A stretch of 64,000 nt of DNA, taken from NCBI GenBank assembly GCA_002011745.1, contig MTOU01000020.1, positions 1-64,000 of the forward strand. The letters are read 5' to 3'. This document shows positions 8,021 to 27,616 of the stretch, one piece after another. Under the pieces are notes generated by a model. The model worked only from the letters and a program-made list of their open reading frames with translations. It was not told the DNA's origin and made no database searches. A program made the translations under genes and the position numbers. Numbering within the stretch: the first letter of the stretch is position 1; each line of letters starts with the position of its first letter. The stretch is from Nitrospirae bacterium JdFR-85. GTDB lineage: Bacteria; Nitrospirota; Thermodesulfovibrionia; Thermodesulfovibrionales; JdFR-85.

Positions 8021-8107
8021 TCTTAGAATCGGATGTAATATTAGATTATATCAAGGTTTCGATATTATAACACTTGATTAAAGCTGTGTTAGCTCAAAAA
8101 TGAATCC

Positions 8108-8227
8108 TTAAAAACTTGTGGAGTTGTCTTTTGAGCTTTGTAAATATAAATCTATTTCATGAGGAAATCTTTTCTTCAAACGGACTTTTACTTTTTCTGG
8201 CCATGAGGCCTTCTTCTTTTTCTCCAT
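8108..8227 (-). CDS. Small 39-aa ORF MEKKKKASWPEKVKVRLKKRFPHEIDLYLQSSKDNSTSF; transposase N-terminal remnant or small protein
   Basis: ORF with AGAGGTGG-type SD immediately downstream of brxA; SD lies in the arm of an inverted repeat. Confidence 0.3.
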   Translation of the reverse strand: MEKKKKASWPEKVKVRLKKRFPHEIDLYLQSSKDNSTSF

Positions 8228-8228
8228 C

Positions 8229-8278
8229 GTCCACCTCTTGTGTTTTGGTAGTTTATCAATTTACACACTTAGGTGGAC
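8229..8278. repeat. Inverted repeat GTCCACCT...AGGTGGAC spanning the brxA stop codon
   Basis: 8/8 bp perfect arms at 8229-8236 and 8271-8278, plus inner GTGT/ACAC pairing. Confidence 0.6.
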
Positions 8279-9026
8279 TGCTCCAATATTTTATCATAAC
8301 AATATCCTCATCTACTCTCTGTCTGAATAATTCAAGACGTTGATTAAGTTCTAAATCTTTGTAAGTAATCATTCCTATATCAAAAGGGAAAAGAGATGGA
8401 TTCTGAGTGACAGCAGAAACTAACTGTTGCTTAAAATTTCCAGATATAAGCACCGCCTCAATTAACCATGCAGCGAGTTTTTTATCCTTAATAGACCAAG
8501 CAGCCGGTTGTTGGTAAATGCCTTTCTTTTCAGTATCACTTAGTACACCCCAATCTACAAAACAACGCAGAATGCGTCTGGTTGCCCTTGTTACTGTTTC
8601 ACGGTCTCCAAACTGTTCTTTAATCCGTCGCAGTACCTGTGCTGGTGTAAAGGAACCCTGCAGTTTTAAAAGACGGCCTGCTGTTTCTGCTACAAGTCCA
8701 AAAAAGGGATATACTGTCATTGTCATTCCCCAGTGAACAGAGATACGCTCATCTATTGAAAGCCTCTTAAGATGCTTAAGTGCATCATCACGAAAAGGCC
8801 TCAAGTGTTTTGGTGGTGTTACCCAAATCTTTAGAAGAATTGATATAGCCTTCTCACGTGCCCCACGTTTTGTGTTGTGCCCAATTGATAACTGATTTTT
8901 GAGTAGCTCATCCAATAAAGATTTTATTTCCTTTTCTGTTTTACCTGAAAGAAACTGCTCTGCTGTATATTCAAGCCATTCGAGCCGAATACGCTGGCTA
9001 AAACCTACAGTTTTTTTACTCCTCAC
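8256..9026 (-). CDS. brxA: BrxA-like protein (last gene of BREX type 3 operon)
   Basis: 256-aa helical protein following pglZ with ATGA start/stop overlap; position and size match brxA of type 3 BREX. Confidence 0.65.
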   Translation of the reverse strand: MRSKKTVGFSQRIRLEWLEYTAEQFLSGKTEKEIKSLLDELLKNQLSIGHNTKRGAREKAISILLKIWVTPPKHLRPFRDDALKHLKRLSIDERISVHWGMTMTVYPFFGLVAETAGRLLKLQGSFTPAQVLRRIKEQFGDRETVTRATRRILRCFVDWGVLSDTEKKGIYQQPAAWSIKDKKLAAWLIEAVLISGNFKQQLVSAVTQNPSLFPFDIGMITYKDLELNQRLELFRQRVDEDIVMIKYWSSPPKCVN

Positions 9027-11032
9027 CCTGTCCTCCTTTCAAACTGAACGAAAGGAACTATCAATTCTTCTACAGTAATTCCACCATGTACTACAACTGT
9101 TTCACCTTCACTGACAAAGGCTGATCGTCCAGCAGCTAAAAGCGGAAGATAATTATCAGGCAGCCCAATATTAGGCCAATCAATTGCATCAGGAAACCTC
9201 TCCTTGGTCTGTCTTCTTAGAAGAACATCTGAATAGATTCTAACTCTCTCTCCTCTGAGATCAGCAACTGAGCCTTCAGAGGGGCAGCCACATCCTTTTG
9301 CTTCAATATTGCCATGGTCTGATGTCAAAAAGACACTGAACTCATGTTCAATAAGAAGATTGAGTAGGTCAATCATAAAACCCTGTTCAAGCCACTGCCT
9401 AACCTGATTGTACATTCCAGCAGTGCCAAGCTCCATTCCGTGCATGATTTTGTCTATCTTATCAACTATTATACCAACAACCCGTATCTTGGGATGTGAA
9501 ATAATCTCTTCAACCAACTCCAGTTTGCCATCTCTGATTCCCTTCACATAACCCACTTCCACCTTTGACAACCCTTGATCAATCCAGAAACTACTCCAGT
9601 GCTCCATTTCCCGGTTTGTTGTATGAATACTTTCAGGGAAATAAATGGGTGGTTTTCCAGCAAATATTGACTGTCTGGAAACTGGGGTAATCGTAGGAAT
9701 CCATGCAAAAACCGCCCTTTCACGAACTTGCAGTTCAGGAAGTTGCTGTGCAACTTTATTCCGCAATATTATCCACTGGTCAAAGGCCATACCGTCAATC
9801 AGAACTAAAGCGACTTTCCCTTTATCTGTGTGTTCAAGATTTCTTGCCATAACCTTTGGCACATGGTGTAACATAACCGGAGGTATGGGTGGTTGATTGT
9901 GAAGTCCAGTGTATCGTTTCTTAACCCAAGACTGAAAATCTCCATCTATTCTTTCCTGTAAAAATAGAAACCTCTCCTTCAGATTGTCTGATGGTCCTAT
10001 TTCATAAAAAAGTGTGATCAATTCTGTCCAGCGAGGAGCAAATGAGAGCCAGTCATGGTATCTGGAATGGATAGAAGGAATTGTGGTTTCAATGCTCTTT
10101 AACAGTCTTTCCATCCGGCGTTGAGCATCTCTGGCAGGATCTATCATTAATCCTACTGAAACCCATTTATCTGAGAGTCTCTCTGCATTAGGATGTTGAA
10201 CAGGACGTAATATTCCCTCTAAAAAGAGGTTGTCAATATAAACACGGATATCGTCGTGATCAAAGGGAATATCTTTTGGGCCTGAAAACCTCAGATAAGG
10301 TTCTTGCAATTCGCTTAATTTATCTACCTCACCTGCAACCATCTTATCAAGAAATATTGGCCACCGTTCCTGAAGAAAAGAGAAGAATGCCTCACGATCT
10401 GGAATGATTTGCTCAAGGGGCCAGTCATTAAATCTTTTGTTTTGGCGAATAATCTGAATAAACCTTTCATCTATAATGGAAGGAATACGCTGGCCCTTAT
10501 AGTGTCGCCTAAGTAGAACTCTGAGCAGGTCAGATGGTTGATTAATCAACTCAGGAGCAATCCCAAATACATGCCTTAAAACAAAATCCTTTGTAGCATT
10601 ATCACCAAGATTGTCTGGTTTATACTGTATCTGGGCTCTGTAAAGTGCATCAAGATCACTGCGGTCCAGCGATTCTACCACAGGATAACTCAGATTCGGA
10701 AAAATCTCTCCAAGATTAAATGAGAGAATTCTGCCTGCCTGTAAGAGGTCATATGGAAGGGTAGTCAGATCATTGGTTGGCACTCTAACAGCTACCACAA
10801 GCTCTGTCAGTTCACCTCTGTCCCATTTTGACCGGTATTTTGACTCATAGGAGTATCTAAAGGCTATTGGATCTTCAAATTCAAGTAGTTCAAACCCTCT
10901 TTCTCGCAATGCAGCGATAATTCCCTCCTCAGCCATTAATCCATCTGGATCAGAAACAAGTGTTAACCTTGCAACACCAGGTATAAACTCCTTCAGAATA
11001 TATTCACGCCAGCTATTCATATTTTTAGACAC
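9023..11032 (-). CDS. pglZ: BREX phosphatase PglZ (type 3)
   Basis: Alkaline-phosphatase-superfamily features VALVLIDGMAFDQW, ITPVSRQSIFAGKPP, FLTSDHGNIEAKG, VVVHGGITVEELIVPFVQF; operon position. Confidence 0.88.
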   Translation of the reverse strand: MSKNMNSWREYILKEFIPGVARLTLVSDPDGLMAEEGIIAALRERGFELLEFEDPIAFRYSYESKYRSKWDRGELTELVVAVRVPTNDLTTLPYDLLQAGRILSFNLGEIFPNLSYPVVESLDRSDLDALYRAQIQYKPDNLGDNATKDFVLRHVFGIAPELINQPSDLLRVLLRRHYKGQRIPSIIDERFIQIIRQNKRFNDWPLEQIIPDREAFFSFLQERWPIFLDKMVAGEVDKLSELQEPYLRFSGPKDIPFDHDDIRVYIDNLFLEGILRPVQHPNAERLSDKWVSVGLMIDPARDAQRRMERLLKSIETTIPSIHSRYHDWLSFAPRWTELITLFYEIGPSDNLKERFLFLQERIDGDFQSWVKKRYTGLHNQPPIPPVMLHHVPKVMARNLEHTDKGKVALVLIDGMAFDQWIILRNKVAQQLPELQVRERAVFAWIPTITPVSRQSIFAGKPPIYFPESIHTTNREMEHWSSFWIDQGLSKVEVGYVKGIRDGKLELVEEIISHPKIRVVGIIVDKIDKIMHGMELGTAGMYNQVRQWLEQGFMIDLLNLLIEHEFSVFLTSDHGNIEAKGCGCPSEGSVADLRGERVRIYSDVLLRRQTKERFPDAIDWPNIGLPDNYLPLLAAGRSAFVSEGETVVVHGGITVEELIVPFVQFERRTG

Positions 11033-13808
11033 CTTCTATACGAATTAGAAGTATAGGTACCATCTCAGGACTAATTTCAGCCATTTTCCTGATCTTTTCT
11101 TGCCAGGCTTTTTCCTGCTCTGATAGTTGTGTGAGACGGTATTGCCTGACCTGTGGTAGACCTATCCGCTCTATATTCCGCTGACGGGCCCGAAAGGCAT
11201 ATTCTCCTTTCTCTCGCTCTCGGGCAATCCATTCCTGATGCATCCTGAGGAGTTTTTCGTATATAGGTCTTCCATGCACTTCTGCAGCATTTACCATCCG
11301 ATTAAAGATATCTGCTGATTCCTCGCCGCTCAGGTGGCTGTGTATCTTTTCCATGCCTGAAAGTATTCTTTCCCAGATATGCCGCGCTGTTGGTAAAAGA
11401 ACCCTGCCATCATCGTGTAGGAAAAACGGCATTATCCTTTGTTTTTTCCAATCAATAGCCTGAATTGTTATTCTCCACAAAGACCAGAAACCATGAACAT
11501 CCTCTGGAAGTCCTGTAAGTTTAACACAGGGAATTGGCTGTCCTGGTGCAAACCGAGGAAGGCTCATCACCAACCCTCTTATCCGACTATCTTCCAGTGT
11601 TAATTTCTGTGCTGAAGTAGCAACTTCGGCATCCCAGTTTGTAAATACAACCTCTTGCATTGTGTCTCCATCTGGCCAGGTAAGATTCCATACATTTCCC
11701 TGCTTCTCTGCCTTACCTCCATGAGATCTAAGATAGCTTACTGTCATATTTTCAACCCAATATGGTAGAGGATGTTCTATTAATCGTTTTGCCTCGGCAG
11801 GATCAGGATTATCTTCTGTTCCAAGACTAGCTGCACTTTCACGAATAATCTTCACCTGTTCTTTTACCTGATTTATCTTAGATTCAACTATATCTTCAAC
11901 TCTTTCAGGTTGGAGAATAGATTCAATGTATAAGTCACCAAATATCCTCTCTGCCTGGGCTGAGTCAAGAACATCACCAGTTTTGTCTACTCCAAACTCC
12001 TCAAAAATTTTAGTGAGTTTTTCTTCAAGCACCTCTCTTACTCTATGCTCAACAGTTTCCTGAAGGACAAAATTTATAGCACGAACTGTATGAGTCTGTC
12101 CAATACGGTCAACACGGCCTATGCGTTGCTCAAGTCGCATTGGATTCCAGGGGATATCATAGTTAATTACCACATGACAGAACTGTAAATTCAGTCCTTC
12201 ACCTCCTGCATCTGTTGAGATTAATATGCGAGCATCTCTGGAGAACGCCTCCTGAACCTTCTGACGCTCCTCCATTGTCATTGACCCATTAAGACAGACA
12301 ACAGAGAAGCCTCTTTCAGTAAGAAACTCATACAACATCTCCTGTGTAGGAACAAATTCAGTAAAGACTATAATCTTAAGCTCGGGATCACCTTCTTCTT
12401 GTTGAAGTTTATAGATCCAATCAAGGAGCGTCTCAGCCTTTGCATCTGGGCCACTAAGTTCTGTCCGTTTTGCTGCTTCAAGCAATAGTTTTACCTCTTC
12501 CCTCTCGTTTTTTAAGGCTTTCAGACGTGCATTAATGAATGTATCTACCAATTGTTGGCCGTCAAGATCTGCCCACTCTTCCTCAGAAAGCATAGGAAAT
12601 AAGCTGAGTTGCTCATCCGGAGCCTGAAGGATCTCAAGCCTTCTCTCAAGAGTGATGCGAATTGCCCGTGTTGAAGAAGTAACAAGTCGTTGAAAGAGGA
12701 TCATTAAAAAACCGATATAGGTCTTTTTCTCCTTTAATGCCTGGTTATAGCCCTCACGAACATACTCTGTTACGGCATTGTATAGAAGTTGTTGCTCTCT
12801 GTGTCGTTCTGTCCATGAGATAGGTTCCAGCCGTATCTGTCGTGGTTTAAAAAGTGGATTTCCCTTTGCATCTATAGCCTGCCGTTTTTCTGTTCTTATA
12901 ACATAGGGCTTTACTCTTTCTCTTTTTATACTCTCTGGATCAGGAAAAGTAGAAGAATCCAGCAGAGATATCAGACGGTAAAAGGACTCTGTTTTCCCTT
13001 GGTGTGGTGTAGCTGTAAGCAGTAAAAGATATGGCGCTGCTTTGGATAATGCCCTGCCAAGTTTATATCGTGCAACCTGGTCAGAGCTTCCTCCCAAACG
13101 GTGTGCTTCATCCACAATAATTAGATCCCATCCTGCGGAAATCAGGTCTTCAAATCGCTCACGATTATATTCAGCAATCTGTTCCTTTGACCATCCCCGA
13201 CGCCCATCAGTTGGCTTTACAGAATCTATAGGGCATACTATCTGGTCGTATGCCTGCCATATATTTCTCTCAGGTAAAATTCTCTTGTAAACAGAAAAAT
13301 CACCAGGGATGATAAGCTGAAACTCCTCATTAAAATGAGTCTTCATTTCTGCCACCCATTGAGTAACCAGACCCTTTGGAGCTACAACAAGCGTTCTCTT
13401 TACAAGCCCACGGAGTTTAAGTTCCTTCATAATGAGTCCTGCTTCTATGGTCTTACCAAGCCCTACCTCATCAGCAAGGAGATATCTAACTCTGTCTCCT
13501 GAAATTGCACGCGATAGAGTTCGAATCTGATGGGGTAGTGGAATTACCGAAGACTCTAAGGGAGCAAGCAGAATATCCTGAGTTAATGCATCAGCTATAC
13601 GGGCAGCAGAGGCTATATAAACAATATAATCTCTATTGGTTATATCTAATTCTTCGAGAGGCTTTAACCTGTCGGCTCGGAGTCGTACAACAGAATCTTT
13701 CCCTGGAAGCCATACAAGGTAGAATGTATCTCCCCAGAGTGTTTGGGAGTCAATGATTTTACAAGTCTGATTATGTTCAGTACTCCAGACCCATTCGCCT
13801 GTGTTCAT
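11025..13808 (-). CDS. brxH: SNF2/DEAD-like helicase (BrxHII-type)
   Basis: LADEVGLGKTIEAGLIMKEL (Walker A), IIVDEAHRLGG, LLLTATPHQGKTE, QRIGRVDRIGQTHTVRAINF. Confidence 0.9.
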   Translation of the reverse strand: MNTGEWVWSTEHNQTCKIIDSQTLWGDTFYLVWLPGKDSVVRLRADRLKPLEELDITNRDYIVYIASAARIADALTQDILLAPLESSVIPLPHQIRTLSRAISGDRVRYLLADEVGLGKTIEAGLIMKELKLRGLVKRTLVVAPKGLVTQWVAEMKTHFNEEFQLIIPGDFSVYKRILPERNIWQAYDQIVCPIDSVKPTDGRRGWSKEQIAEYNRERFEDLISAGWDLIIVDEAHRLGGSSDQVARYKLGRALSKAAPYLLLLTATPHQGKTESFYRLISLLDSSTFPDPESIKRERVKPYVIRTEKRQAIDAKGNPLFKPRQIRLEPISWTERHREQQLLYNAVTEYVREGYNQALKEKKTYIGFLMILFQRLVTSSTRAIRITLERRLEILQAPDEQLSLFPMLSEEEWADLDGQQLVDTFINARLKALKNEREEVKLLLEAAKRTELSGPDAKAETLLDWIYKLQQEEGDPELKIIVFTEFVPTQEMLYEFLTERGFSVVCLNGSMTMEERQKVQEAFSRDARILISTDAGGEGLNLQFCHVVINYDIPWNPMRLEQRIGRVDRIGQTHTVRAINFVLQETVEHRVREVLEEKLTKIFEEFGVDKTGDVLDSAQAERIFGDLYIESILQPERVEDIVESKINQVKEQVKIIRESAASLGTEDNPDPAEAKRLIEHPLPYWVENMTVSYLRSHGGKAEKQGNVWNLTWPDGDTMQEVVFTNWDAEVATSAQKLTLEDSRIRGLVMSLPRFAPGQPIPCVKLTGLPEDVHGFWSLWRITIQAIDWKKQRIMPFFLHDDGRVLLPTARHIWERILSGMEKIHSHLSGEESADIFNRMVNAAEVHGRPIYEKLLRMHQEWIAREREKGEYAFRARQRNIERIGLPQVRQYRLTQLSEQEKAWQEKIRKMAEISPEMVPILLIRIEGV

Positions 13809-14673: not shown

Positions 14674-15504
14674 TTATATCACAAAAAAGTCTTCCAACTT
14701 TTGAAGATGAAAACTCATAAAATCTGATATTTCTGCATATCCTTCTGGAGGAGTATATTCAATTGAGTAATCAATAAGTTTTTGACTCCCATCTGGATAT
14801 TGCACTATACTTACTCTTTTCTTGCGATTAAGATACTTAGTATCACTATCAAACATTCTACAACGACGAGTATCTGGAAAATATGACGGTGTTGTTTTTG
14901 GAGCTACCACAAGATAAGGAGTTTTCTGTATCGATTTACCAAGCTTATGTGCTTCAAAACCTTCTGATGTTGTAATAACCATTCTGTGAACTAAATGGTG
15001 TCTATACTCTCGAATGTCCTTTAACCATGAAAGATGTTTATTTATTACATTAAAAAAGTGACTATTTTTATTATTTTTCTCGACAAGTTTTATGAAAGTT
15101 CTTATTGATTCAGTGTTTACCCCTTTCAGATAATGACTACAAGCTGTAGCAATAAAGTCCACTGAACTTTTCATTGCCTCAAAAAAAGCAGCAAGTTCGT
15201 ATATAAAATGATCTGCTGTTTTAAGGACTGTAATCTTAGCCTTTTCGGGAAGTTGATCATTATTTTGTATATCTGAAGATTCAACCTCATTATTGAAGTC
15301 ATCTATTAACTGTTTAACTCTTTCGAGATGATAGCACACAGCTCTGTACTTTCTAAAAGCGTACATCAATATTGATTCATATCTTTCTTTCTCTTTTTCA
15401 TCTAAAAAAACTGAATTTTGGCCTATGCAGGCTTGGTCCATTTTAGAAAAATAGTCTTCTAATGAATCAAATACTTTTGAGTGATTCTTCATTTTTGTTT
15501 TCAT
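14674..15504 (-). CDS. HEPN-like helical protein
   Basis: IREYRHHLVHRMV fits a HEPN R-x4-H motif within an alpha-helical context; ATGA overlap with upstream ORF. Confidence 0.5.
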   Translation of the reverse strand: MKTKMKNHSKVFDSLEDYFSKMDQACIGQNSVFLDEKEKERYESILMYAFRKYRAVCYHLERVKQLIDDFNNEVESSDIQNNDQLPEKAKITVLKTADHFIYELAAFFEAMKSSVDFIATACSHYLKGVNTESIRTFIKLVEKNNKNSHFFNVINKHLSWLKDIREYRHHLVHRMVITTSEGFEAHKLGKSIQKTPYLVVAPKTTPSYFPDTRRCRMFDSDTKYLNRKKRVSIVQYPDGSQKLIDYSIEYTPPEGYAEISDFMSFHLQKLEDFFVI

Positions 15505-16241
15505 TTAGTATTTAATTCCTCAATTCTGCCATTGGTTATATCAAAGAGAAAGACCCTATCAAAATTTGAAGTATATCTAAAATTTAAAGTTTCTTCTGTT
15601 ATTTTGGCTGCCGATGAAAGTTCACACACTGACACAATAAGAAGCCAAAGAGAGCTAAAACTACCTCTATAATTAGACACTTTAGTATTCTTTTTATTAA
15701 TAATTTGTTGAATTCTTTCTGGAGTACAATCACATATAAAATCACCATAGGAATTGTGCCAATCGTTTTCCGTAAATTCTTCTATGCGATAAATACGAAT
15801 TGCAGCAATTTCATCTGATAAAGAACCATACTCTTCGAGCTCTACAGATTCTCCAATCTCTGGGATTTTATTAAATATAAGTGATTTTAAGTTATCAGAA
15901 ATTCTATCAACTAATCCTTTATTTATCTCAACACCTGCTGACCAAATAATAGATACAATGAGGGGTGGATTCTCCTCTTCCTCATACTTTCTTTTAGATT
16001 TTAAAATAATCATTTCTTTTAAACTTTCTTGAGCCTGTAAAGCTGAAGATGAAAAACCTTCTTCTTGATAGAATCTTGTGATTTCGATACCAATATCACC
16101 ATGATCATTAGTGATCACTATATCAGGTTCTATTTGGGGAATGCCGATTCTTAATTTTCCGTCTGGAAAATTCGAATAATGTCTTTTAAAATAATTTGAG
16201 ATGTATTCATTAAACTGTTTATGCCCAGGATTTTCTTTCAT
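15501..16241 (-). CDS. Hypothetical protein with possible PD-(D/E)xK-like core
   Basis: IEPDIVITNDHGDIGIEITRF resembles PD...(D/E)x(K/T) core; 5 bp after upstream TM gene. Confidence 0.35.
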   Translation of the reverse strand: MKENPGHKQFNEYISNYFKRHYSNFPDGKLRIGIPQIEPDIVITNDHGDIGIEITRFYQEEGFSSSALQAQESLKEMIILKSKRKYEEEENPPLIVSIIWSAGVEINKGLVDRISDNLKSLIFNKIPEIGESVELEEYGSLSDEIAAIRIYRIEEFTENDWHNSYGDFICDCTPERIQQIINKKNTKVSNYRGSFSSLWLLIVSVCELSSAAKITEETLNFRYTSNFDRVFLFDITNGRIEELNTK

Positions 16242-16246
16242 TATAA

Positions 16247-16837
16247 CTATTCAAACCAATTTGTTCTTTTTAAATTTCTCTTTAGCTTAGCCCATTTAAT
16301 AAACAAATATATCAGACATAAAAGTATTGAAACTATGACAATCGTCACAATTATATTAGTAGGTAAATATATAAATGGGTAATTCAACATCAATAATATA
16401 GTAATAGATATTATGGTAAAAAATAACAAAGTAAAGCGAAAGAAAATTTTAGAAAGTTTACCCGAAGTTTTTACCATTTCTAAATATTCCATTGCTTTAA
16501 CGTACTCATCCTCTCCATTTTCTGGATTATTTGTACTAATAGATTTCTTCATACAATACTTATAAAGCTTTCTTTTGAGATTCCAAGAGTAAAAATTAAT
16601 TAGACATAACAATGCAGTTGCAATAGGAATAAAATAGAGAAATGATAAGCTTCTTGTTTTTTCTAATTGGAATAAAGCGTAAAATACACCAGATGATAAA
16701 ACAATAATTGTTGTCATTAAGCCAAAATACATTTTTATAGAATCATAGATCGATTCTTTTATCTTTTCGAATTCTTTTTTGTTTTGTTCTTTGTTCATTA
16801 TAATTTTTTCATTAAATTTATTTTCTTCATTTCTCAC
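16247..16837 (-). CDS. Predicted 4-TM membrane protein
   Basis: Four hydrophobic segments (MTTIIVLSSGVFYALF, FLYFIPIATALLCLINFY, FFRFTLLFFTIISITILLML, NIIVTIVIVSILLCLIYLFI). Confidence 0.6.
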   Translation of the reverse strand: MRNEENKFNEKIIMNKEQNKKEFEKIKESIYDSIKMYFGLMTTIIVLSSGVFYALFQLEKTRSLSFLYFIPIATALLCLINFYSWNLKRKLYKYCMKKSISTNNPENGEDEYVKAMEYLEMVKTSGKLSKIFFRFTLLFFTIISITILLMLNYPFIYLPTNIIVTIVIVSILLCLIYLFIKWAKLKRNLKRTNWFE

Positions 16838-17157: not shown

Positions 17158-20100
17158 TTATGGATTCCAATATGAACTATAACGATGAATGTGTTTATAG
17201 TTAGACCACAAATCGCGAAGGCTTTCTAACAATGTAAAATCTGTCCGGTGCTTAAAATTGCGTTCTCCCCAAAGAAGCCACACTAAGGTTTGACGAGAGT
17301 TTAAATAGCGTCTCATCAAATCAGCACGAAGATAAAATAAATAAGAGCGGAATGTATCCTCATCGCTTTTAAATTCTCGATATATTGTAGCAATGCGTCC
17401 CTCAAGATCGTAGAGATCCCATTCACCTCGACGATTACATAAACTTAATTGCTCGCAAAGTGCAGGGGCAGGAACAATTATCCCACTTACTTGGTTGAGT
17501 GCGCTGTGGTATCTCTCCCAAGCAAATCTATACACAGGCACCTCTACAGGAATTCCTCCAGACAGCCCCTGTTTACCAGCATGCCGTGCAAAGGCTTCTC
17601 TAATGTCACGCCTTGCCTTGCCATTCGATTCTCGAATGGTTTTCCCGAAATGTAGTGACCATGGAATTTCACCTGCATAAGTATAATATTCTTCTAATGG
17701 TTCTGGAATTTCCATGTTGCCTGGATACTCAACCGCTTTGAAAGTTGCTAACAGATTCTCTACTTGGTCGTGTTCCACGAGCAAGCCTCGTAGAAACGTA
17801 AATATCATCCTATCGTCATTTTTGGAAGACTGTTCGATGTAACCATCCAAAAGCACCCATGGACCAGGTTGGTCGTCTACCTCTTCAGGGTATAACAAAT
17901 GTTTGTAATTTGGTGTGGGGCCATCCGTGATCCACGACCGAGGTTCGGCAGGAGCTTCAGTGAATAAATCAGGTAGCGTAGGTTGCCATATGCGTGGACG
18001 TCCTGGGAAACTGGGATCAATATCAACTTCGGGTGGGCGTCTGTCAACTCGCCACTCTGGCAAAGCACCTTTATTGAGTCTAATTCCATACATCTCGAAA
18101 TAAGCAATCCAAGAATATTTCTTACCATACCGGTCTGTTTTCGGATTCCCCCGTCTTTCAGCCTCCCATGAGGCAGTACCAATCTCCCTATCTATCTCAG
18201 CAAACTGACTTGACTTATACCCCAATTGCACAATTCTATATTCAATCTGGCGCCGAACCTCGCGGTATATGGGATTATCAAAGTCATAGTTATGTCTGTC
18301 GGGAATTAGCCCGCCTATGGTATAATTTCCAAAATCCATGCGTATGGTACCTTCAGCCTCAGTTAGGTCATTATCATCTATTTCGCTTGGTGTTGGAAAT
18401 GGCGAAGGAATATGATTGAATGGTGGTTTTAGGTAATCCTGCTTTTCATCTGATATACATCCCGGCACGACGCGATTGGCTAAATCTATCACACCAAGAG
18501 CATAGTCCCTCATTAAGACATGGTGCGTGGAATGCGGAGCTCCAGGGACAAACATCTCGTCTATTAGTATGTTTGCAAAGCCAGGTAGTTCTTTACGTAA
18601 CTGATCACCTCGAGGATCTGCCCAGAGCGTCATCGCCACCCCATAGCATGCTGCAAGCATGCGTTCAGGAACATAGGGATCGTTTATATCAAGCGAGTTG
18701 AGTGTCATTTCAAACAGAGCTTTAGGATCACGGCAGCCAAACCAATATAAGGCACGCGTGGCGTGATCACGTAGCAGACGGACTGTGCTTGTGAGGATCC
18801 ACATCACCCACCATGCCCGAAGCTGATCTCGTTGATTTAGTGACTGATCCGACTGCCAGTGCTTCTCCAACCGTTTTATATCTTTAAGTACTTCTTCTTG
18901 CCTGCGGCGGATCCATTCTGTCCATCGGAGATCTCGCTCTGCCATCGACATTGAACGAAGAACTTCATCCAAGAATTCCATATTGAGGGGATGTGATTGG
19001 GCTGCACGGGTACTCCAGAGCCGATCAAAAAGATCACGACGATCCATTGGTGCAGCTGCCACAAGATTAGCCAACTGTCTCACTGTCTCACTATCAAGAT
19101 ACTCTTTATCCAGCCAAGCTGCCTCATAAAGAGCCTTAGTTCGCAGCGGCTCATCCAATAAAGGCCAAAGTTGTCGTCTGTACATCCGACGAGGTGCAAG
19201 TCCTACCAGTGCACGGAATATGTCACTTGCAAGAGGATGACGTTGATCAAAGTCCCCTGTTAATGCTGAAATTGTGTCTGGGTTACGTATCCAAGATTCG
19301 AAATTGGTTCTTCCGTAAGTATCAAGCAGTGCATCTGCTATGAGGTGTCCTGCTAATGCATCATACATTATGGAAATGTGATTACCACTAAGCCGGTGGT
19401 CAGATACTTTGATAAGTACGCCTTCCTGCTCTAAAGCCCGTACAATACTTTTATCCCAGGAACGTTGGTTGTCTTCAAGGACTCGTCGAAGTTCCTCGAT
19501 ATTAAGGCTCCGGGATCTTGCATCCCACAAACATTGTCCGATCTTGCTAAGCGCAGTGCGAACATCCGATTCATAGTAACGCCAAGCACGGGATGATAAT
19601 TCTGCTATGCGCTCCGCGACCAGATCGAGGTATCTCTCAAACAGGGAGGTAAGCGATCCTGGCATGGCTTCGACACCTACGGTCCGATTGCGTTTGGGAT
19701 TTGTCACTTCACAAAACATCCGCAGTTTTAAAGGATGTTGTAGCAGTCTCCATGGCAACTTTGCATCTCTTGAATCGATCCGATAATATTGGAAATACCG
19801 CCGCACAGCATCAACGGTGTTTTGCTCAAAACCAGGAATCTCCAGTCGTTCAACTTCATCGGGTAGTGCCTCTTTAACAAAATCTGGACGTAGAGTGCAT
19901 ACAACCAACACATATTGATATTGATCCAATAATGTACTCAACGAGGCAAGCTGACCCTTCCAGTCACGAGGATCTTCTGCTTCGTTCAAGCCATCAATAA
20001 CGATAGGTAATCGCCGACCGGCACGCTGACCGGCAGCATCAACAGCTTCAACTAATGCCTCAAAGCTTTGCAACGGCCTTCCATGAATGACAATTCTCTT

Positions 20101-21204
20101 AGCAAGTTCATTAAGGGTTCCTCCAGATGCCAAATTGCTTCCATGTAGTAGAATGCCAGCAGGCCGTTTATCAGTAGGAGCAGTGAGTTGAGCAGCTAAA
20201 TGTGTTTTGCCGCATCCCCAATCCGCGACGACTGCAATCAGTCGTTTATTCAGAGAATTAAGAAGATCATCTATGAGTCGATATGCATCGTAAATATAGG
20301 CCACCATATTGGTAACTGACAGAACAACTGGATAACGTCCAGATCTCAATCGACGGAGTAAGACTTTCCACGTTGGATTAGGGCTACTTCTGTTGGTAAG
20401 TGCTTGCCGGACAACCTCATAATCTCCTCTCGCCAGAGTAGTATATATCTGGGTCAAAAAGTTTGCGATGCTATCAGCAGCTTTGGCTAATTTATTAACC
20501 TCTTCGCCAAGATTTGCTGGTAAATCTGACAGCTCATTCCTGATAGCTGTTGCACCAGCCTGAAGCCGACTTGCAACCTCGGTCAGTTCGGACCAAGCTT
20601 CCTCCTCCCCCAATATACGCCGAAGCGAGCGTTCAGCATCCACAACTTGGTGTACCTCGGGAAGCCATCTTCGCCTGATGGGGGCAACCGATTCATTATG
20701 CTTTTCGCTGAGCAATTCCGGCGTTAGAACAAGTTCTCCGAAATATGTGCCGCGAAGGATTTCTGCAGGTCCACTTAGATATTCTTCAATCTCTGTGAGT
20801 GTCCAGAGGTGTAACCTCATGTCTGTTTCTATGTTGTAAAACCATTCTTGAACACTTTTTGTTAGTGGATATTTTGTCCAAAGTACCCAATCGGTCAACC
20901 CTGGAAGAAATTTTTCCGTTTTCCGGATAGCATCCTCAATATCTTTTCGCCTGCTTGTTCCGATAGGCCGTCCACTCGGTAGGTCGTACCATTTACATTG
21001 CCAGCCATACCACCGTCCTGGTTCACCGAGAGGACACGATGAATGTAACTTCAAATGAAACTCAACACCTGGTTGATTGGCTAAAGCACGAAAATCACCG
21101 AATTGTCCATAATGGCGGCGAATGATCGCTCGACACAACAATTCAAAGTTCCTTGCTTTATCACCAGGTAATTCTACAAACTTTTCCCAATTCACTTCCG
21201 GCAT
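17158..21204 (-). CDS. Large STAND/NACHT-like NTPase with N-terminal restriction-endonuclease-like domain
   Basis: N-term FELLCRAIIRRHYG...GVEFHLKL...WYGWQCKWYD (Mrr-like (E)...QxK pattern); VVADWGCGKTHLA Walker A; LPIVIDGLNEAEDP Walker B; LVVCTLRPDF sensor. Confidence 0.7.
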   Translation of the reverse strand: MPEVNWEKFVELPGDKARNFELLCRAIIRRHYGQFGDFRALANQPGVEFHLKLHSSCPLGEPGRWYGWQCKWYDLPSGRPIGTSRRKDIEDAIRKTEKFLPGLTDWVLWTKYPLTKSVQEWFYNIETDMRLHLWTLTEIEEYLSGPAEILRGTYFGELVLTPELLSEKHNESVAPIRRRWLPEVHQVVDAERSLRRILGEEEAWSELTEVASRLQAGATAIRNELSDLPANLGEEVNKLAKAADSIANFLTQIYTTLARGDYEVVRQALTNRSSPNPTWKVLLRRLRSGRYPVVLSVTNMVAYIYDAYRLIDDLLNSLNKRLIAVVADWGCGKTHLAAQLTAPTDKRPAGILLHGSNLASGGTLNELAKRIVIHGRPLQSFEALVEAVDAAGQRAGRRLPIVIDGLNEAEDPRDWKGQLASLSTLLDQYQYVLVVCTLRPDFVKEALPDEVERLEIPGFEQNTVDAVRRYFQYYRIDSRDAKLPWRLLQHPLKLRMFCEVTNPKRNRTVGVEAMPGSLTSLFERYLDLVAERIAELSSRAWRYYESDVRTALSKIGQCLWDARSRSLNIEELRRVLEDNQRSWDKSIVRALEQEGVLIKVSDHRLSGNHISIMYDALAGHLIADALLDTYGRTNFESWIRNPDTISALTGDFDQRHPLASDIFRALVGLAPRRMYRRQLWPLLDEPLRTKALYEAAWLDKEYLDSETVRQLANLVAAAPMDRRDLFDRLWSTRAAQSHPLNMEFLDEVLRSMSMAERDLRWTEWIRRRQEEVLKDIKRLEKHWQSDQSLNQRDQLRAWWVMWILTSTVRLLRDHATRALYWFGCRDPKALFEMTLNSLDINDPYVPERMLAACYGVAMTLWADPRGDQLRKELPGFANILIDEMFVPGAPHSTHHVLMRDYALGVIDLANRVVPGCISDEKQDYLKPPFNHIPSPFPTPSEIDDNDLTEAEGTIRMDFGNYTIGGLIPDRHNYDFDNPIYREVRRQIEYRIVQLGYKSSQFAEIDREIGTASWEAERRGNPKTDRYGKKYSWIAYFEMYGIRLNKGALPEWRVDRRPPEVDIDPSFPGRPRIWQPTLPDLFTEAPAEPRSWITDGPTPNYKHLLYPEEVDDQPGPWVLLDGYIEQSSKNDDRMIFTFLRGLLVEHDQVENLLATFKAVEYPGNMEIPEPLEEYYTYAGEIPWSLHFGKTIRESNGKARRDIREAFARHAGKQGLSGGIPVEVPVYRFAWERYHSALNQVSGIIVPAPALCEQLSLCNRRGEWDLYDLEGRIATIYREFKSDEDTFRSYLFYLRADLMRRYLNSRQTLVWLLWGERNFKHRTDFTLLESLRDLWSNYKHIHRYSSYWNP

Positions 21205-21231
21205 GATTCCATCCCTCCTGCGATAAGAAGA

Positions 21232-21633
21232 TCATCGTCCGTATCCAGTATCTGGATAGTCATGAGCCGAATATACTTTTACTCGAGCACCTTTATCAAG
21301 CAAAACCTTCAGAAATGCTGACACATCTATTTCATCAGTGGTTATAACAACTTTGTTGCTTTCAACACTAACGCGAACATCGTAAAGAAACTGCTCCAGT
21401 TCTGCCGGAGCAAGACTATATACATTTACTGATCTTAAAAGTTCCGATATCGCATCTGTAAAGCGGTCCTGTGGAACTGTGTTTTCTTGATCCATGTCTG
21501 CATCGTTAGCCACCTGTTCAATAAGTTTGTCAATCACCCTTTTGGCTTCTTCAGCATCACGGACTTCCTTGAATTCTCCAATCATTACAAGGTTCATGGA
21601 ATGCTCTGAGCCATACCCTTTCCAAATTTTCAT
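21232..21633 (-). CDS. 133-aa protein with conserved-looking N-terminus MKIWKGYGSEHSMNLVMIGEF (possibly DUF6375-like)
   Basis: ORF between rSAM and NTPase genes with gaps of 11 bp and 27 bp; family name from memory only. Confidence 0.5.
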   Translation of the reverse strand: MKIWKGYGSEHSMNLVMIGEFKEVRDAEEAKRVIDKLIEQVANDADMDQENTVPQDRFTDAISELLRSVNVYSLAPAELEQFLYDVRVSVESNKVVITTDEIDVSAFLKVLLDKGARVKVYSAHDYPDTGYGR

Positions 21634-21644
21634 GAGATTACCTC

Positions 21645-22547
21645 CTATAAATGTTCAAGCATGTTCAAAGCATGCAATACCCCTTCTGGACCAATAGTTA
21701 CACCATTTTCATCAAATGACGAGCGTTTGATGACACCTGTAGAATCAATATGTGCATACGCCCGAAGTCCAGTTTCATGCCTGAATGCCGTGCATACAGT
21801 AAAGCCCTCGCTCGCCACTTCACTTATGCTTATTGGAATTCCTCCTTGATACGAATTTACCCATTCACGTAATTTTTGCATAGTTTGCCTATCAATCCCC
21901 CTTCGGCCCCGTACAGGTTGTTCAGGTATTAGCAAAAGTTCTGATGCACCATATTCAGTTGCGACTGTAACTGCCGCATCCAAATCAGGCAGGGTAAGTT
22001 TGTTGACAAGGTAGTTGATACCAAATGGAGCAATATCTCGGATCAGCTCAAATCGATTCAGTAACGAGGCGAAACGCCTTTTGCGAATTTTCTCATATGT
22101 AGCCCCTACACCATCCATGCTCACGCGAATGAAGTGGACATTCCCCTTTAAAGCAGCAACGAGCCGATTATCTATATAGTGTCCGTGTGTTGTGAATGTC
22201 ACGGCTAAGTCAGTGTTCTGGGCAGCGTATCTGCACACATTTGGCAACTCATGGTACAGCGTTGGCTCACCTCCTCCAAAGCCAATACCAATACAACCAC
22301 TTGCATCAAGCTCATTTAACCAAGTGAGCAAACGCTTAACATCAAGCTTGGCTGGATATTTTGGAGCAAAACAATGTGGACAGTCGAGGTCACATGCGTT
22401 CGTTAGCGCGATCGAGACATGGCGTGGCGCTGTAGCCCATAACTTTTGGGGTATTTTGATCTCATCGATAAGAATGTTTATCCCTGTATCACGATTGAAA
22501 AGAAGAATGCCGTCTGGCCCCATTCGTATTTTGAACTGACGTTGCAT
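21645..22547 (-). CDS. Radical SAM protein
   Basis: CDLDCPHC (CxxxCxxC), GIGFGGGEPTLY, FIRVSMDGVGATYEKIRK. Confidence 0.88.
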   Translation of the reverse strand: MQRQFKIRMGPDGILLFNRDTGINILIDEIKIPQKLWATAPRHVSIALTNACDLDCPHCFAPKYPAKLDVKRLLTWLNELDASGCIGIGFGGGEPTLYHELPNVCRYAAQNTDLAVTFTTHGHYIDNRLVAALKGNVHFIRVSMDGVGATYEKIRKRRFASLLNRFELIRDIAPFGINYLVNKLTLPDLDAAVTVATEYGASELLLIPEQPVRGRRGIDRQTMQKLREWVNSYQGGIPISISEVASEGFTVCTAFRHETGLRAYAHIDSTGVIKRSSFDENGVTIGPEGVLHALNMLEHL

Positions 22548-22594: not shown

Positions 22595-25500
22595 TTACTC
22601 TCCCCCCATTCTTGTTACTGCCTGATCATACCACATCAGCAACTTTGGGTCTTCCTGTAATACTGATTCTGGAATTTTGCGGGCTACGGAGATGATAGTG
22701 GCGTAGTCACGCTCCTGCCAGGCTTTTTTGAAGCCAGCGCGGACGGCTTCAAGGCGGAAGACCTTCAGTCGCTTTTGTTTAGACTGTTTATACTCTTCAA
22801 ACTCCCGCAGTAATGCCTTCTCACGCAGTTTTTCTAAGTCTGATGCCTTATTAGGGTCAGGCACATACCAGCGGTCTTTTGCACGGGTTATGAGTTTCTG
22901 GTTTTGGGTTCTGAGTTGGCCGTTTTCTTCAGTGGCACGGCCTGTGGCTAATTCTTCCTCTATGGTTTTTCTGAGTTCAGCACTCTGGTGCATCCAGGAG
23001 ACAATTTGTTGTGGAATGGGGCCTTTGCCATCGTACCGGAGAAAGTTCTGTTCTAAAAGTTCCAAAAGTTCCAGAGGTTTTTCATGCTTTTGCCAGCCGC
23101 TGATTTCTTTTAAGAACTGTGGATGTAGTTCCTGAAATGTCTGTGGTTTCTTTGTGAGTTGCTGCTTAAGCCACTGGATAGCAGATGATTCGTCTTTTAT
23201 CCAGATTTCTAACTGTAGAACCTCTTTAGTTTTCAATCGTCTCTTATCATATTCTGCCACCTGTTCAGGCAGAAAATACATACCATCTCGTTCCGGAAAT
23301 CGCTGAGCAAGCCCTGCATAGAACTCAGCCGCAGACATTGGCACAGTCACACCACGCTGAACATGGAAGGCAACCATGCGGTCGTAGAGGAGATAGTTTT
23401 GCCTTTCGGCAACTATCTCCAGTTTTGAGTTCAGTGTTCCTGGTTCTTGATTAGATTTTGAACCTGAAACTCCGAACCCTGAACCCCGAACCACAACAGT
23501 AGGCAGTTGCCTCAAATGAGTACGGATAAAGTCCCATACCCCTTCTTCAGTACCAGCACTCAGTTTGAATCTCTCCTCAAGTCCGCCATTGGGTTTGTAG
23601 GCGGAGATAATGAGGTCCTGTTTAACAGCACCTCCACTTGTTACTTGCTTAAAGGTTCCCAAACCTTTATCTAAAGTCCTTACGTCTGCTACTACAAATC
23701 CTGCATGTTGTAATGCTTCTTGAATCGCATTCCAAATAATGTTCTTAGAATTGTGAAATTCAACAGTCATCCATCGTCCGGGTTTAAGAATACGAAAATA
23801 TTCCTTGAAACATAGAGTCATTAATTCTTTATATTCAAATAACCCTTTACCTTGAACTTTGTTTTCTATTGCCTCGCTTTTATTGTTAGTATATACCTTT
23901 AGCCATGCCTCCCAAAGAAAATTAAGTTCCGAGTACATCAGGTTCCCCCCGAAAGGAGGATCGGTAAAGATATAATCAATAGAATTGTCTTTCATATCAA
24001 CAATATCAGTTGAATTTGTAAAAATAAATGACCTACCAACCACTTCAGAATAGGCTTTAACCATACGGCTTATCTTATTTGTGTAAGCATTAAAAATATT
24101 GGCTTCAGAAATTTGTGAACCAACATACAGCGTGCCACTTAGAGGGTTGTATGGAAAGGAAACTCCAGGTCTATAGCGATTTAATCTGGATATATTAATA
24201 AGTTGACTATTGAACATAAGAAGGATTTGTGGAATCTTACAATGTTTTCGAATTGCTCCCAACACCCACAAATTCCTCTTTGTATAAAAATGGTGTACAT
24301 GAGTTAGGCCGATGTCATCGTTGCGTCGGGATTCTTCGCCTTCCGGCATCCTGTCAGTCGGAAACCAATAAGGGATGTCCATTTGTTCTATCTTTTCAAT
24401 CAACGCAAGGTCAAAGGCATCGGGTGTCTTTTCAAAGCGCTTTTTCTCAACACTGTAATTAATAAGCACAGGTACCTGCTTTGCCTGACGAATAGTCTTG
24501 CCTATGGCTTTATCGTATTTTGTTACCCATGCTCGTTCCATTCTCTGTTTAGTAAGCACTGCATCACAATGTGGGCATGGAAATTCCTTATGAACCTTGC
24601 CTGCTGCTTTATCCACAGCTACATCCCAGAAGATAATCTCATTGGTGCATTCAGGGCAGACAAACACATCAGACCAGACAGTGTAGTTGATTTTGCCCAA
24701 TGTAACGGTAGGGGTTTTGAGTTCTGGGTTGTGGGTTTTGAGTTCTGGGTTCTGGGTTTTGAGTTGGTTTATGAAATTTCTGCATTCTTCAGGGCTTTTA
24801 CATCTCATAAGATCTTTTGCCAATTGTTCAACCTCTTCATCCTTTAACCCCTGAACCCTGAACCCCGAACCCTGAACTTCCCTTGCCAGCGTGGCATACA
24901 TCCATCCGCACTCCTCTTCCACCTCCTTGAGAATCCTCTTTGCCTCACGCTCAAATTCCTCTACATCAACAGGTGTGTTGTAGTTGTAGGCAATAAAGGT
25001 AGCCGCAGGTGAAAGGTCATTAAGTATTGCATACCGTGCACCAAGTCTGGAAAAGGGCTTCCAAACTGTTTTGCCATTTTCGTCGGTTTCCTGCTGGTAG
25101 ATGATTCCTTTGTCATCAACCCTGTAGCCAAGTGACTCTACAGCCTTACGGTCACCACAGAGTTGTGCAGCAACACCAGTCATCCCTGTCCCACAAAAGC
25201 CATCAAACACCAAATCTCCTGGCTCGGTATAATGCAGTATGTACCGCATGATCGCCTTATGAGGAACCTTGGTGTGGTAGGAATGGGCATTATAGATTGG
25301 ATCGTTCTTTCCCTCGCTAACATCTGCAGCAAAGGGCTCACGCTGATAGGGTTCCTGGTTCTGGGTTGTGGGTTCCTGGTTGGAAGAATCCCGAATCCTG
25401 AATTCTGAACCCTGAACTTTAAACTCTGAACCCTGAACTACCGATTTTTGCTCCTGCAAATGACAGATAAAATCAACAATGAATGGGTTTGGACAGGCAG

Positions 25501-25888
25501 TGTAGTAAGGTGGGTCGGAGAGTCTCAGGATGTCTTCAATTTCACCATGAGGAAAACCAACCTGATCTTTCCAGAGCTGGAGCAGGTCTTTGTCCCGCTC
25601 CTGACGATGCTCTGCCCACATACGCTCAGCCAGTTCACGCAGGCGTTTTTCATCTCCCATGGGCCACTTTTTAATTGACTTCATCTTCTCAACAGCATCT
25701 TCTACTGTAGTAAAGGGCACGCCACCAAGTTTCTCATGAAGTTCCTCCAGCCCTTCACGCAGTTTTGTAAGAAAATACTCCCGCCTCGCCTCATCATTCT
25801 CGAAGGTCATACCAAGGCAGTAAATAAATTCTTTGTGTTCAGGGTTCTGAGTTTTGAGTTTTGAGTGGAATAGGAGGTCTTGTTTCAT
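22595..25888 (-). CDS. pglX: BREX type 3 DNA adenine methyltransferase (PglX-type, DUF1156/COG1743-like) with internal Zn-ribbon
   Basis: VFDGFCGTGMTGVAAQL, YIFTDPPFGGNLMYSELNFLWEAWL, CPECTNEI...CPHCDAVL; operon context. Native start may be internal (MTFENDEARREYFLTKL). Confidence 0.88.
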   Translation of the reverse strand: MKQDLLFHSKLKTQNPEHKEFIYCLGMTFENDEARREYFLTKLREGLEELHEKLGGVPFTTVEDAVEKMKSIKKWPMGDEKRLRELAERMWAEHRQERDKDLLQLWKDQVGFPHGEIEDILRLSDPPYYTACPNPFIVDFICHLQEQKSVVQGSEFKVQGSEFRIRDSSNQEPTTQNQEPYQREPFAADVSEGKNDPIYNAHSYHTKVPHKAIMRYILHYTEPGDLVFDGFCGTGMTGVAAQLCGDRKAVESLGYRVDDKGIIYQQETDENGKTVWKPFSRLGARYAILNDLSPAATFIAYNYNTPVDVEEFEREAKRILKEVEEECGWMYATLAREVQGSGFRVQGLKDEEVEQLAKDLMRCKSPEECRNFINQLKTQNPELKTHNPELKTPTVTLGKINYTVWSDVFVCPECTNEIIFWDVAVDKAAGKVHKEFPCPHCDAVLTKQRMERAWVTKYDKAIGKTIRQAKQVPVLINYSVEKKRFEKTPDAFDLALIEKIEQMDIPYWFPTDRMPEGEESRRNDDIGLTHVHHFYTKRNLWVLGAIRKHCKIPQILLMFNSQLINISRLNRYRPGVSFPYNPLSGTLYVGSQISEANIFNAYTNKISRMVKAYSEVVGRSFIFTNSTDIVDMKDNSIDYIFTDPPFGGNLMYSELNFLWEAWLKVYTNNKSEAIENKVQGKGLFEYKELMTLCFKEYFRILKPGRWMTVEFHNSKNIIWNAIQEALQHAGFVVADVRTLDKGLGTFKQVTSGGAVKQDLIISAYKPNGGLEERFKLSAGTEEGVWDFIRTHLRQLPTVVVRGSGFGVSGSKSNQEPGTLNSKLEIVAERQNYLLYDRMVAFHVQRGVTVPMSAAEFYAGLAQRFPERDGMYFLPEQVAEYDKRRLKTKEVLQLEIWIKDESSAIQWLKQQLTKKPQTFQELHPQFLKEISGWQKHEKPLELLELLEQNFLRYDGKGPIPQQIVSWMHQSAELRKTIEEELATGRATEENGQLRTQNQKLITRAKDRWYVPDPNKASDLEKLREKALLREFEEYKQSKQKRLKVFRLEAVRAGFKKAWQERDYATIISVARKIPESVLQEDPKLLMWYDQAVTRMGGE
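22891..22920. repeat. Heptamer-like repeat island in pglX
   Basis: tgagtttctggttttgggttctgagttggc; encodes QLRTQNQKLI. Confidence 0.6.
23421..23494. repeat. Heptamer-like repeat island in pglX
   Basis: ttttgagttcagtgttcctggttcttg...aacctgaaactccgaaccctgaaccccgaacc; encodes VRGSGFGVSGSKSNQEPGTLNSKLE. Confidence 0.7.
24716..24775. repeat. Heptamer-like repeat island in pglX
   Basis: ttttgagttctgggttgtgggttttgagttctgggttctgggttttgagttgg; encodes QLKTQNPELKTHNPELKTP. Confidence 0.8.
24846..24881. repeat. Heptamer-like repeat island in pglX
   Basis: aacccctgaaccctgaaccccgaaccctgaacttcc; encodes VQGSGFRVQGL. Confidence 0.8.
25350..25440. repeat. Heptamer-like repeat island in pglX
   Basis: gttcctggttctgggttgtgggttcctggttgg...gaatcctgaattctgaaccctgaactttaaactctgaaccctgaacta; encodes VVQGSEFKVQGSEFRIRDSSNQEPTTQNQEP. 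Confidence 0.8.
25835..25866. repeat. Heptamer-like repeat island at the pglX 5' end
   Basis: gtgttcagggttctgagttttgagttttgag; encodes LKTQNPEHKE. Confidence 0.65.
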
Positions 25889-26600: not shown

Positions 26601-27616
26601 GTTGTCTTTGTTCATATTCATAACTGGGATATATCTAACTCATCAACAAATGTATTTAGTAGATATTTTTGATATTCATTTTGGGGCTTGTTGATTTCTT
26701 TAATAACATTTGCCCATGAACTTTTGAGACTTACCTTTTTGTAAAAATTTATCACCTCTTTCTTTGCTGGAAAAGCCCAATTGTCCGAGGATTGCATCAT
26801 AACCTCAAATAATGTTAACCAAATAAGCCAATATTTATCATCTTCAAATTCAGAAATTATGCGTTCAAGTAGTGGGTTACTGTTTGGTGTCAGAAATTTA
26901 CAATAACTAAGTAGCCCTATTCTTAAAGTGTGAATATGATGTTCTATTACAAATTTATTATTTGAATTTGATTTTGCGAGTTTTATTGCAATCTCTATTA
27001 ATTCAGTCACCTCGTTTTTTTGCTCCTCATATTCCTTATTTAAATCCAAAAACCAGAGAGCATCAAAGTATCTGTAATTTGACCAAAAAGTAAATGTTGA
27101 ATTTTCATAAAGAATACTCTTAATCTCTGCGTTCCAATTGAACACTTGCTCATTCTTATTTTGGGGATCCGCAATCAATAGCCGCGCTCCTTTAATCTTG
27201 CTTTCCATTTTCGCAGAATGTACAAGAGCCGGGCTAATAATAAAATTTTTAGAAAGATTAGGTGCTTCCACTCGATTTTGTATGTCAACCATTCCGTATG
27301 AAATGCCGCCACGCGGTAAAAGGAAATATTTTGATAAGTCAAAGTCATACGCATTATTTTTCTTCAAACACTCCCTATATATTTCAGTAATCACATTTAC
27401 CAATAGAGCAGGATTATTTGAATAAGCTAAAAGGCTATCTGAAAATAAAATACCTTTTACTTCTTTGTTTTTTTTAATGATTCTATAGGTAATATTGTAA
27501 AAATCATTTAATATTTCTTTTGAACGAGTTGGATTATTAGCCACCATCTGACTAAAACCCAACAAATCAATAAACGCTAAAGCCTGCATGCTTTGTCTCC
27601 TATTTATTCACCATAA
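26534..27616 (-). mobile_element. Putative single-gene integron-type cassette (1083 bp)
   Basis: Bounded by direct repeats of GTTATG (minus strand; + CATAAC at 26529-26534 and 27612-27617), one ORF filling the unit, attC-like site 3' of it. Confidence 0.55.
26618..27589 (-). CDS. Class III adenylate/guanylate-cyclase-fold protein (activity uncertain)
   Basis: MQALAFIDLLGFSQMV (metal Asp), KGILFSDSLLAYS (second Asp about 41 aa later), LPRGGISYGMV, SPALVHSAKMESKIKGARLLIA correspond in order to FxDIxGFT / GDxxxA / RIGIHxG / VNxAxRLExxA. Confidence 0.6.
   Translation of the reverse strand: MQALAFIDLLGFSQMVANNPTRSKEILNDFYNITYRIIKKNKEVKGILFSDSLLAYSNNPALLVNVITEIYRECLKKNNAYDFDLSKYFLLPRGGISYGMVDIQNRVEAPNLSKNFIISPALVHSAKMESKIKGARLLIADPQNKNEQVFNWNAEIKSILYENSTFTFWSNYRYFDALWFLDLNKEYEEQKNEVTELIEIAIKLAKSNSNNKFVIEHHIHTLRIGLLSYCKFLTPNSNPLLERIISEFEDDKYWLIWLTLFEVMMQSSDNWAFPAKKEVINFYKKVSLKSSWANVIKEINKPQNEYQKYLLNTFVDELDISQL

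Follow-up and report, generated by a model that had tools for sequence, protein, structure and literature searches.

A radical SAM enzyme and a DUF6375 protein encoded with an Avs2-like STAND nuclease in a putative antiphage operon

Gene organization and protein families

Three tightly spaced minus-strand genes were found in the window (the whole 64-kb stretch of DNA that was analyzed), as the original prediction had described, with spacers of 11 bp between the radical SAM (rSAM) gene and the DUF6375 gene and 27 bp between the DUF6375 gene and the Avs2-like gene. The motifs named in that prediction were likewise present, namely CDLDCPHC (a CxxxCxxC motif) and GGGEP in the rSAM enzyme and GVEF...WQCKW, a P-loop (GCGKT) and DGLNE in the 1348-aa protein. 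The genes and features, with conservation among 71 aligned relatives, are as follows.

21645..22547, minus strand: rSAM gene, 300 aa, first in the operon (PF04055, 51 bits)
22371..22394, minus strand: CDLDCPHC [4Fe-4S] cluster motif (C52, C56 and C59), 100% conserved in 71 relatives
22263..22277, minus strand: GGGEP SAM-binding motif, at least 97% conserved in 71 relatives
21232..21633, minus strand: DUF6375 gene, 133 aa, in the middle (PF19902, 169 bits)
21592..21633, minus strand: DUF6375 N-terminal segment, residues 1-14, the best conserved stretch and the proposed rSAM target or docking site
17158..21204, minus strand: Avs2-like gene, 1348 aa, with an Mrr/PD-(D/E)XK-like nuclease, a STAND NTPase and a C-terminal sensor
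20992..21069, minus strand: nuclease core GVEF...WQCK, residues 46-71 (E48, W68 and Q69 100% conserved)
20203..20226, minus strand: Walker A (GCGKT), with G330, G332 and K333 100% conserved in 71 relatives
19981..20007, minus strand: Walker B (IVIDGLNE), with D404 and E408 100% conserved in 71 relatives
18115..18132, minus strand: RYGKKY motif of the C-terminal sensor region, common to canonical Avs2 (ERIGKKY)

The predicted site between pglX and brxH was also borne out. BREX genes flank the trio, with pglX (22595-25888) directly upstream and brxH (11025-13808) downstream past three other small genes, and the surrounding BREX locus also has brxC, pglZ and brxA. The flanks of other trio loci (up to 8-12 kb each) contained no BREX gene and gave generic helicase matches only. 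The BREX setting is therefore regarded as incidental, and a role of the trio as a BREX accessory or BREX type 3 component was ruled out on the same ground. In 40 relatives of the host, pglX was not found. The surroundings look like a mobile defence island, in which the trio travels as a separate passenger.

The same region carries other low-GC genes. A three-gene cassette (GC 0.25-0.32) at 14674-16837 of the window is separate from the trio and located between it and brxH. One of its products has an RxxxxH HEPN-like motif, another possibly a PD-(D/E)XK motif, and the third is a membrane protein. None of the three has an above-cut-off match in Pfam or NCBIfam, and the HEPN-like protein also has none in PADLOC. 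Between pglX and brxC lies a low-GC gene of 323 aa (window 26618-27589), the product of which starts MQALAFIDLLGFS and by eye resembles a nucleotidyl-cyclase-type domain; no family match was found for it.

The 1348-aa protein had been described as a STAND NTPase with a nuclease-like N-terminal part. The STAND nuclease was verified, but the protein could be placed as a full-length divergent relative of Avs2. Its best PADLOC match was the Avs2 model PDLC02164 (E = 2e-128, residues 1-965). Comparison with the Avs2 structure PDB 9o4e (E = 3e-37, residues 319-964) showed a homologous STAND core and an extra weak C-terminal stretch around GKKY. Because the profile-profile match (hhalign) to canonical-type Avs2 spans residues 3-1329 against 14-1480 (Prob 100), the protein is considered Avs2-like along its whole length; the same alignment lines up GVE...WQ(A/C)K and GKKY. 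All 71 relatives have K or R at residue 71. The NCBIfam Avs2 equivalog (NF041813) scored 306 bits and its cut-off of 1000 was not reached, nor did the E. coli trio STAND (276 bits) reach it; the canonical-type Avs2 proteins L136 and L137 of the 296-genome sample (957-967 bits) are themselves just under this cut-off. As judged from sequence, the STAND protein retains every part of the Avs2 architecture, and strict selection acts on its nuclease and ATPase residues. In a tree with four outgroup proteins only, the trio STANDs formed a single clade (support 100/100), and a branch of 1.5 changes per site separates them from other Avs-type proteins. Host phyla were mixed within the trio-STAND tree, as is expected of a system moving horizontally.

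The rSAM enzyme fits no curated family. When its model was compared with solved structures by Foldseek, the nearest were the RiPP maturases SkfB and SuiB, with viperins close behind. The original prediction had called the enzyme a non-viperin, and this was sustained on curated cut-offs: the NCBIfam viperin model gave 48 bits against a cut-off of 180, and a viperin identity was thus ruled out. The pVip models of PADLOC match at 60-70 bits, over the generic core only (residues 44-154). Among 71 relatives, the only rSAM cysteines conserved at 97% or more were C52, C56, C59 and C105, and no SPASM auxiliary-cluster cysteines were conserved C-terminally. Cysteines of the SPASM cluster are present in many peptide-modifying rSAM enzymes.

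The 133-aa protein begins as had been quoted, but it is a member of an existing family, DUF6375 (PF19902), scoring 169 bits against a gathering score of 27.5. Pfam lists this family as one of unknown function, and no mention of DUF6375 was found in the literature search. The AlphaFold model is a small alpha/beta domain (pLDDT 86) with a mostly confident core at residues 15-125. Foldseek against the PDB returned weak ferredoxin-like matches only, none below E 0.001, and a sequence search of the PDB gave nothing credible. The N-terminal tail (residues 1-10) has a pLDDT of about 40, below 50, and is predicted to be disordered. Its consensus is MKIWxGYGSEHS, and the mean majority-residue fraction is 0.81 for residues 1-14 versus 0.55 for the rest. 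M1, I3, W4, H11 and S12 are invariant even when the most distant members are added. No Cys is conserved in DUF6375.

Co-occurrence and spread of the trio

When 85,462 species genomes were scanned with a DUF6375 alignment, 108 loci were returned, which is a lower bound because the scan relies on short peptide patterns. The best 80 of the 108 were analyzed and come from about 18 phyla, as labelled in the sequence records. These include Bacillota, Pseudomonadota, Thermodesulfobacteriota, Cyanobacteriota, Actinomycetota, Planctomycetota, Verrucomicrobiota, Bacteroidota, Acidobacteriota and Chloroflexota. Among these best 80, an rSAM orthologue was found immediately upstream on the same strand at 78 of the 79 DUF6375 loci with enough contig, and an Avs2-like STAND immediately downstream also at 78 of 79. 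Three of the 78 upstream rSAM genes have a broken frame (L038, L054 and L068). The one contig that begins at DUF6375 (L049) and the one that stops at it (L086) come from the same set. Neither partner was present at L081, which comes from a metagenome-assembled genome and in which the end of DUF6375 is damaged. At 59 of at least 80 loci, there is a 4-nt overlap between the rSAM stop and the DUF6375 start. The recurrence of this gene order at nearly all DUF6375 loci found shows that the tight spacing did not arise by chance. Co-occurrence of the homologues elsewhere, on which the original prediction hinged, was thus observed at all but one informative locus.

Presence and absence were also compared within one taxonomic order (296 genomes), counting rSAM orthologues above 300 bits and STANDs above 1300 bits. 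DUF6375, rSAM orthologues and trio STANDs occurred in the same four genomes, adjacent to one another; the four include the centre genome, which was picked for having the trio. Three more Avs2-type STANDs in this sample scored 147-177 bits to the trio profile, and their genomes contained no rSAM orthologue or DUF6375, with no such partners at the loci themselves.

Among 72,556 plasmids, rSAM orthologues and DUF6375 were located on the identical 16 records, after which the rSAM matches fall from E = 1e-79 to 1e-10. The trio is carried by plasmids of Vibrio, Deinococcus and cyanobacteria, some of them conjugative; on the D. peraridilitoris plasmid, the STAND is missing behind an insertion sequence. 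In E. coli, the trio is chromosomal and present in 26 of 5426 complete genomes, and the two loci inspected are islands with integrase genes nearby. The 125 genes flanking trio loci, for which there was no control set, include Gabija GajA, DpdE-like, type I restriction and McrBC genes and integrases. A search of 50,697 named phages gave no rSAM or DUF6375 match.

The distance matrices of 71 complete trios were correlated at 0.72 (DUF6375 and rSAM), 0.80 (DUF6375 and STAND) and 0.86 (rSAM and STAND), and 500 permutations never exceeded 0.13. The sequence comparisons show that the three genes are inherited together, and the trio is almost certainly one functional unit.

An rSAM-DUF6375 pair that lacks a STAND was present in two viral contigs. 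In L093 (IMG/VR 3300028571_002227, 7992-9256), a Mu-like phage, the rSAM gene is followed by DUF6375 near transposition genes, and the pair is possibly a decoy, an antidote or a separate defence. In L090 (IMG/VR 3300047160_003887, 6886-9271), a phage contig, the order is reversed, with a divergent DUF6375-like gene preceding the rSAM gene; the pair is flanked by a DUF2971 gene on one side and a type III restriction-modification system on the other, and its effector may have been swapped. DUF6375 M1, W4, H11 and S12 are kept in the STAND-less pairs too. Because the pair is separable from the STAND receptor, DUF6375 is taken to be the rSAM's own partner.

Proposed mechanism and alternative explanations

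We propose that the trio would act as one antiphage system, in which a divergent Avs2-type receptor is coupled to a dedicated protein-modifying pair. An antiphage role is very probable from homology and mobile setting alone. The rSAM enzyme would act on DUF6375, probably placing a SAM-radical mark on the exposed N-terminal segment, with W4, Y7 and H11/S12 as candidate sites. As a subunit with a regulatory or co-sensing role, DUF6375 would bind the STAND protein, which the mark would license. Upon phage infection, the C-terminal region would recognize a phage protein, the STAND core would then oligomerize, and the N-terminal nuclease would degrade DNA and abort the infection. Terminase and portal are examples of the packaging proteins sensed by the Avs1-Avs4 receptors. 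All four are nuclease receptors for phage packaging proteins (PMC12931631).

DUF6375 is the likely rSAM substrate because its N-terminal tail is the best conserved part and yet predicted to be disordered, and because STAND-less pairs exist. The combination of a folded domain bearing a conserved unstructured N-terminus and an rSAM resembling peptide maturases is suggestive of an enzyme and its substrate. A thioether of the sactipeptide type is unlikely because DUF6375 lacks a conserved Cys. The tail may instead be a docking strand and not a substrate, since a low N-terminal pLDDT also marks segments that fold only on binding. The original prediction that the rSAM may modify the 133-aa protein thus gained indirect support from the disordered conserved tail and the STAND-less pairs, and its nucleotide alternative gained little. 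Modification of DUF6375 by the rSAM is considered somewhat more probable than its absence, and the full sequence of events, in which the rSAM marks DUF6375 and DUF6375 licenses or tunes the Avs2-like nuclease, is given about an even chance.

In the complete genome of Halomonas sp. A40-4 (L054, 7060-8010), the rSAM gene has an in-frame stop, and DUF6375 and the STAND gene are intact. Unless this is a sequencing error, the rSAM is therefore not an essential restraint. A toxin-antitoxin style restraint is disfavored by this single case, and the reading that the mark arms rather than restrains the nuclease is slightly favored. A tentative extension, which we hold to be plausible but rather doubtful, is that the rSAM mark on the DUF6375 tail would be the licensing signal of an NLR-like nuclease and that phage rSAM-DUF6375 pairs would exploit, decoy or re-target this mark.

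Viperins make ddh-nucleotides, and the rSAM could similarly make a small molecule that DUF6375 carries or senses, with the Avs2-like protein as the receptor or an independent second effector. The viperin length of this small rSAM, its lack of SPASM cysteines, the pVip matches to its core and the Foldseek rank of viperins close behind SkfB and SuiB agree with this explanation. It is nevertheless unlikely, given a viperin score far under the curated cut-off and pVip matches confined to the generic core. Moreover, viperins need no small partner, whereas plasmid rSAM orthologues were never found without DUF6375. Another explanation is a guard pair. Here, a SAM-dependent mark on DUF6375 would signal that the SAM pool is intact or that the rSAM is active, and the nuclease would be set free once the mark is lost, for instance when a phage anti-restriction enzyme degrades SAM. 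This arrangement would account for SAM chemistry tied to an abortive nuclease and for phage-borne pairs as decoy or antidote. Strict restraint, however, predicts lethality with a broken rSAM, and L054 combines an rSAM nonsense codon with an intact STAND; the sensor region of the trio STANDs is also still Avs2-sensor-like, which suggests direct sensing of a phage protein. The guard pair is accordingly rated as quite improbable.

It is also decidedly unlikely that the rSAM modifies the STAND itself, or both proteins, with DUF6375 serving as a stoichiometric structural adaptor. Within the trio clade, conservation is strong in several STAND regions, and the highest distance-matrix correlation was that of rSAM and STAND, which is weak support because longer proteins give less noisy distances. 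Where rSAM-DUF6375 pairs occur without a STAND, however, the STAND is not needed as a substrate. Finally, the PADLOC models name the large gene Avs2, as would be expected of an ordinary AVAST type 2 gene with two unimportant hitch-hiking neighbors. This explanation is hardly credible in view of the near-perfect co-occurrence and constant gene order across about 18 phyla (best 80 of 108 loci), the correlated trees, the separate trio-STAND clade and the canonical Avs2 loci of the same taxonomic order that lack rSAM and DUF6375. Simple hitch-hiking was rejected on the co-occurrence, the shared genomes and the correlated distances.

Relation to described systems and significance

Searches of PADLOC, NCBIfam and the literature, the last with few subscription papers or bioRxiv preprints, turned up no named system pairing an rSAM, DUF6375 and an Avs2-like STAND, and the original suggestion of an undescribed cassette agrees with these searches. 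AVAST type 2 (Avs2; 9o4e, NF041813, PDLC02161-02166) shares the nuclease, the STAND NTPase and a sensor with R-x-GKKY. However, Avs2 is a single-gene system, whereas the trio STANDs form a separate clade on a long branch, in an obligate operon with an rSAM and DUF6375 that are absent at canonical Avs2 loci. The trio is filed as an Avs-kind variant because it would work in an Avs2-like manner but lies outside Avs2 proper by curated cut-off and gene content.

AVAST type 1 (Avs1) also has an Avs-family STAND receptor with operon partners. In Avs1, these are a metallo-beta-lactamase-like protein and others, and the N-terminal effector is unlike that of the trio STAND, the partners of which are the rSAM and DUF6375. 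In one Sphingobacterium genome, an Avs1-like pair (by eye, a metallo-beta-lactamase-like protein and a STAND) lies about 15 kb from an rSAM trio on one contig, on which the loci are L134 (3851-9336) and L135 (4131-9763).

Prokaryotic viperins (pVip) are antiviral rSAM enzymes with a core fold that resembles the trio rSAM. They differ in that viperin models cover only the generic core of the trio rSAM, far under the curated cut-off, and in that the trio rSAM appears to work with a small protein partner. SkfB and SuiB have the nearest solved folds, but the trio rSAM lacks auxiliary-cluster cysteines, and its putative substrate is not a short precursor peptide but a 133-aa protein made up of a folded domain and an N-terminal tail. 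In FtsH ternary conflict systems, an rSAM is predicted to modify a peptide effector (PMC7159879). These resemble the trio in concept only, in that an rSAM and a small protein belong to a conflict system centred on an NTPase; they are based on vWA-MoxR/FtsH with other genes and no Avs-type STAND, and are likewise only predicted (PMC7159879).

No description of post-translational licensing of Avs receptors was found in the literature searched. In bacteria, these receptors correspond to the NLR immune receptors, and their presumed trigger is direct contact with a phage protein. The trio in E. coli offers a tractable version of the system. If the proposed mechanism is true, DUF6375 would gain a function, and an rSAM family that defence catalogues miss or could mistake for viperin would be explained. 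A chemical mark would then control a bacterial immune receptor, adding a post-translational licensing step to its activation.
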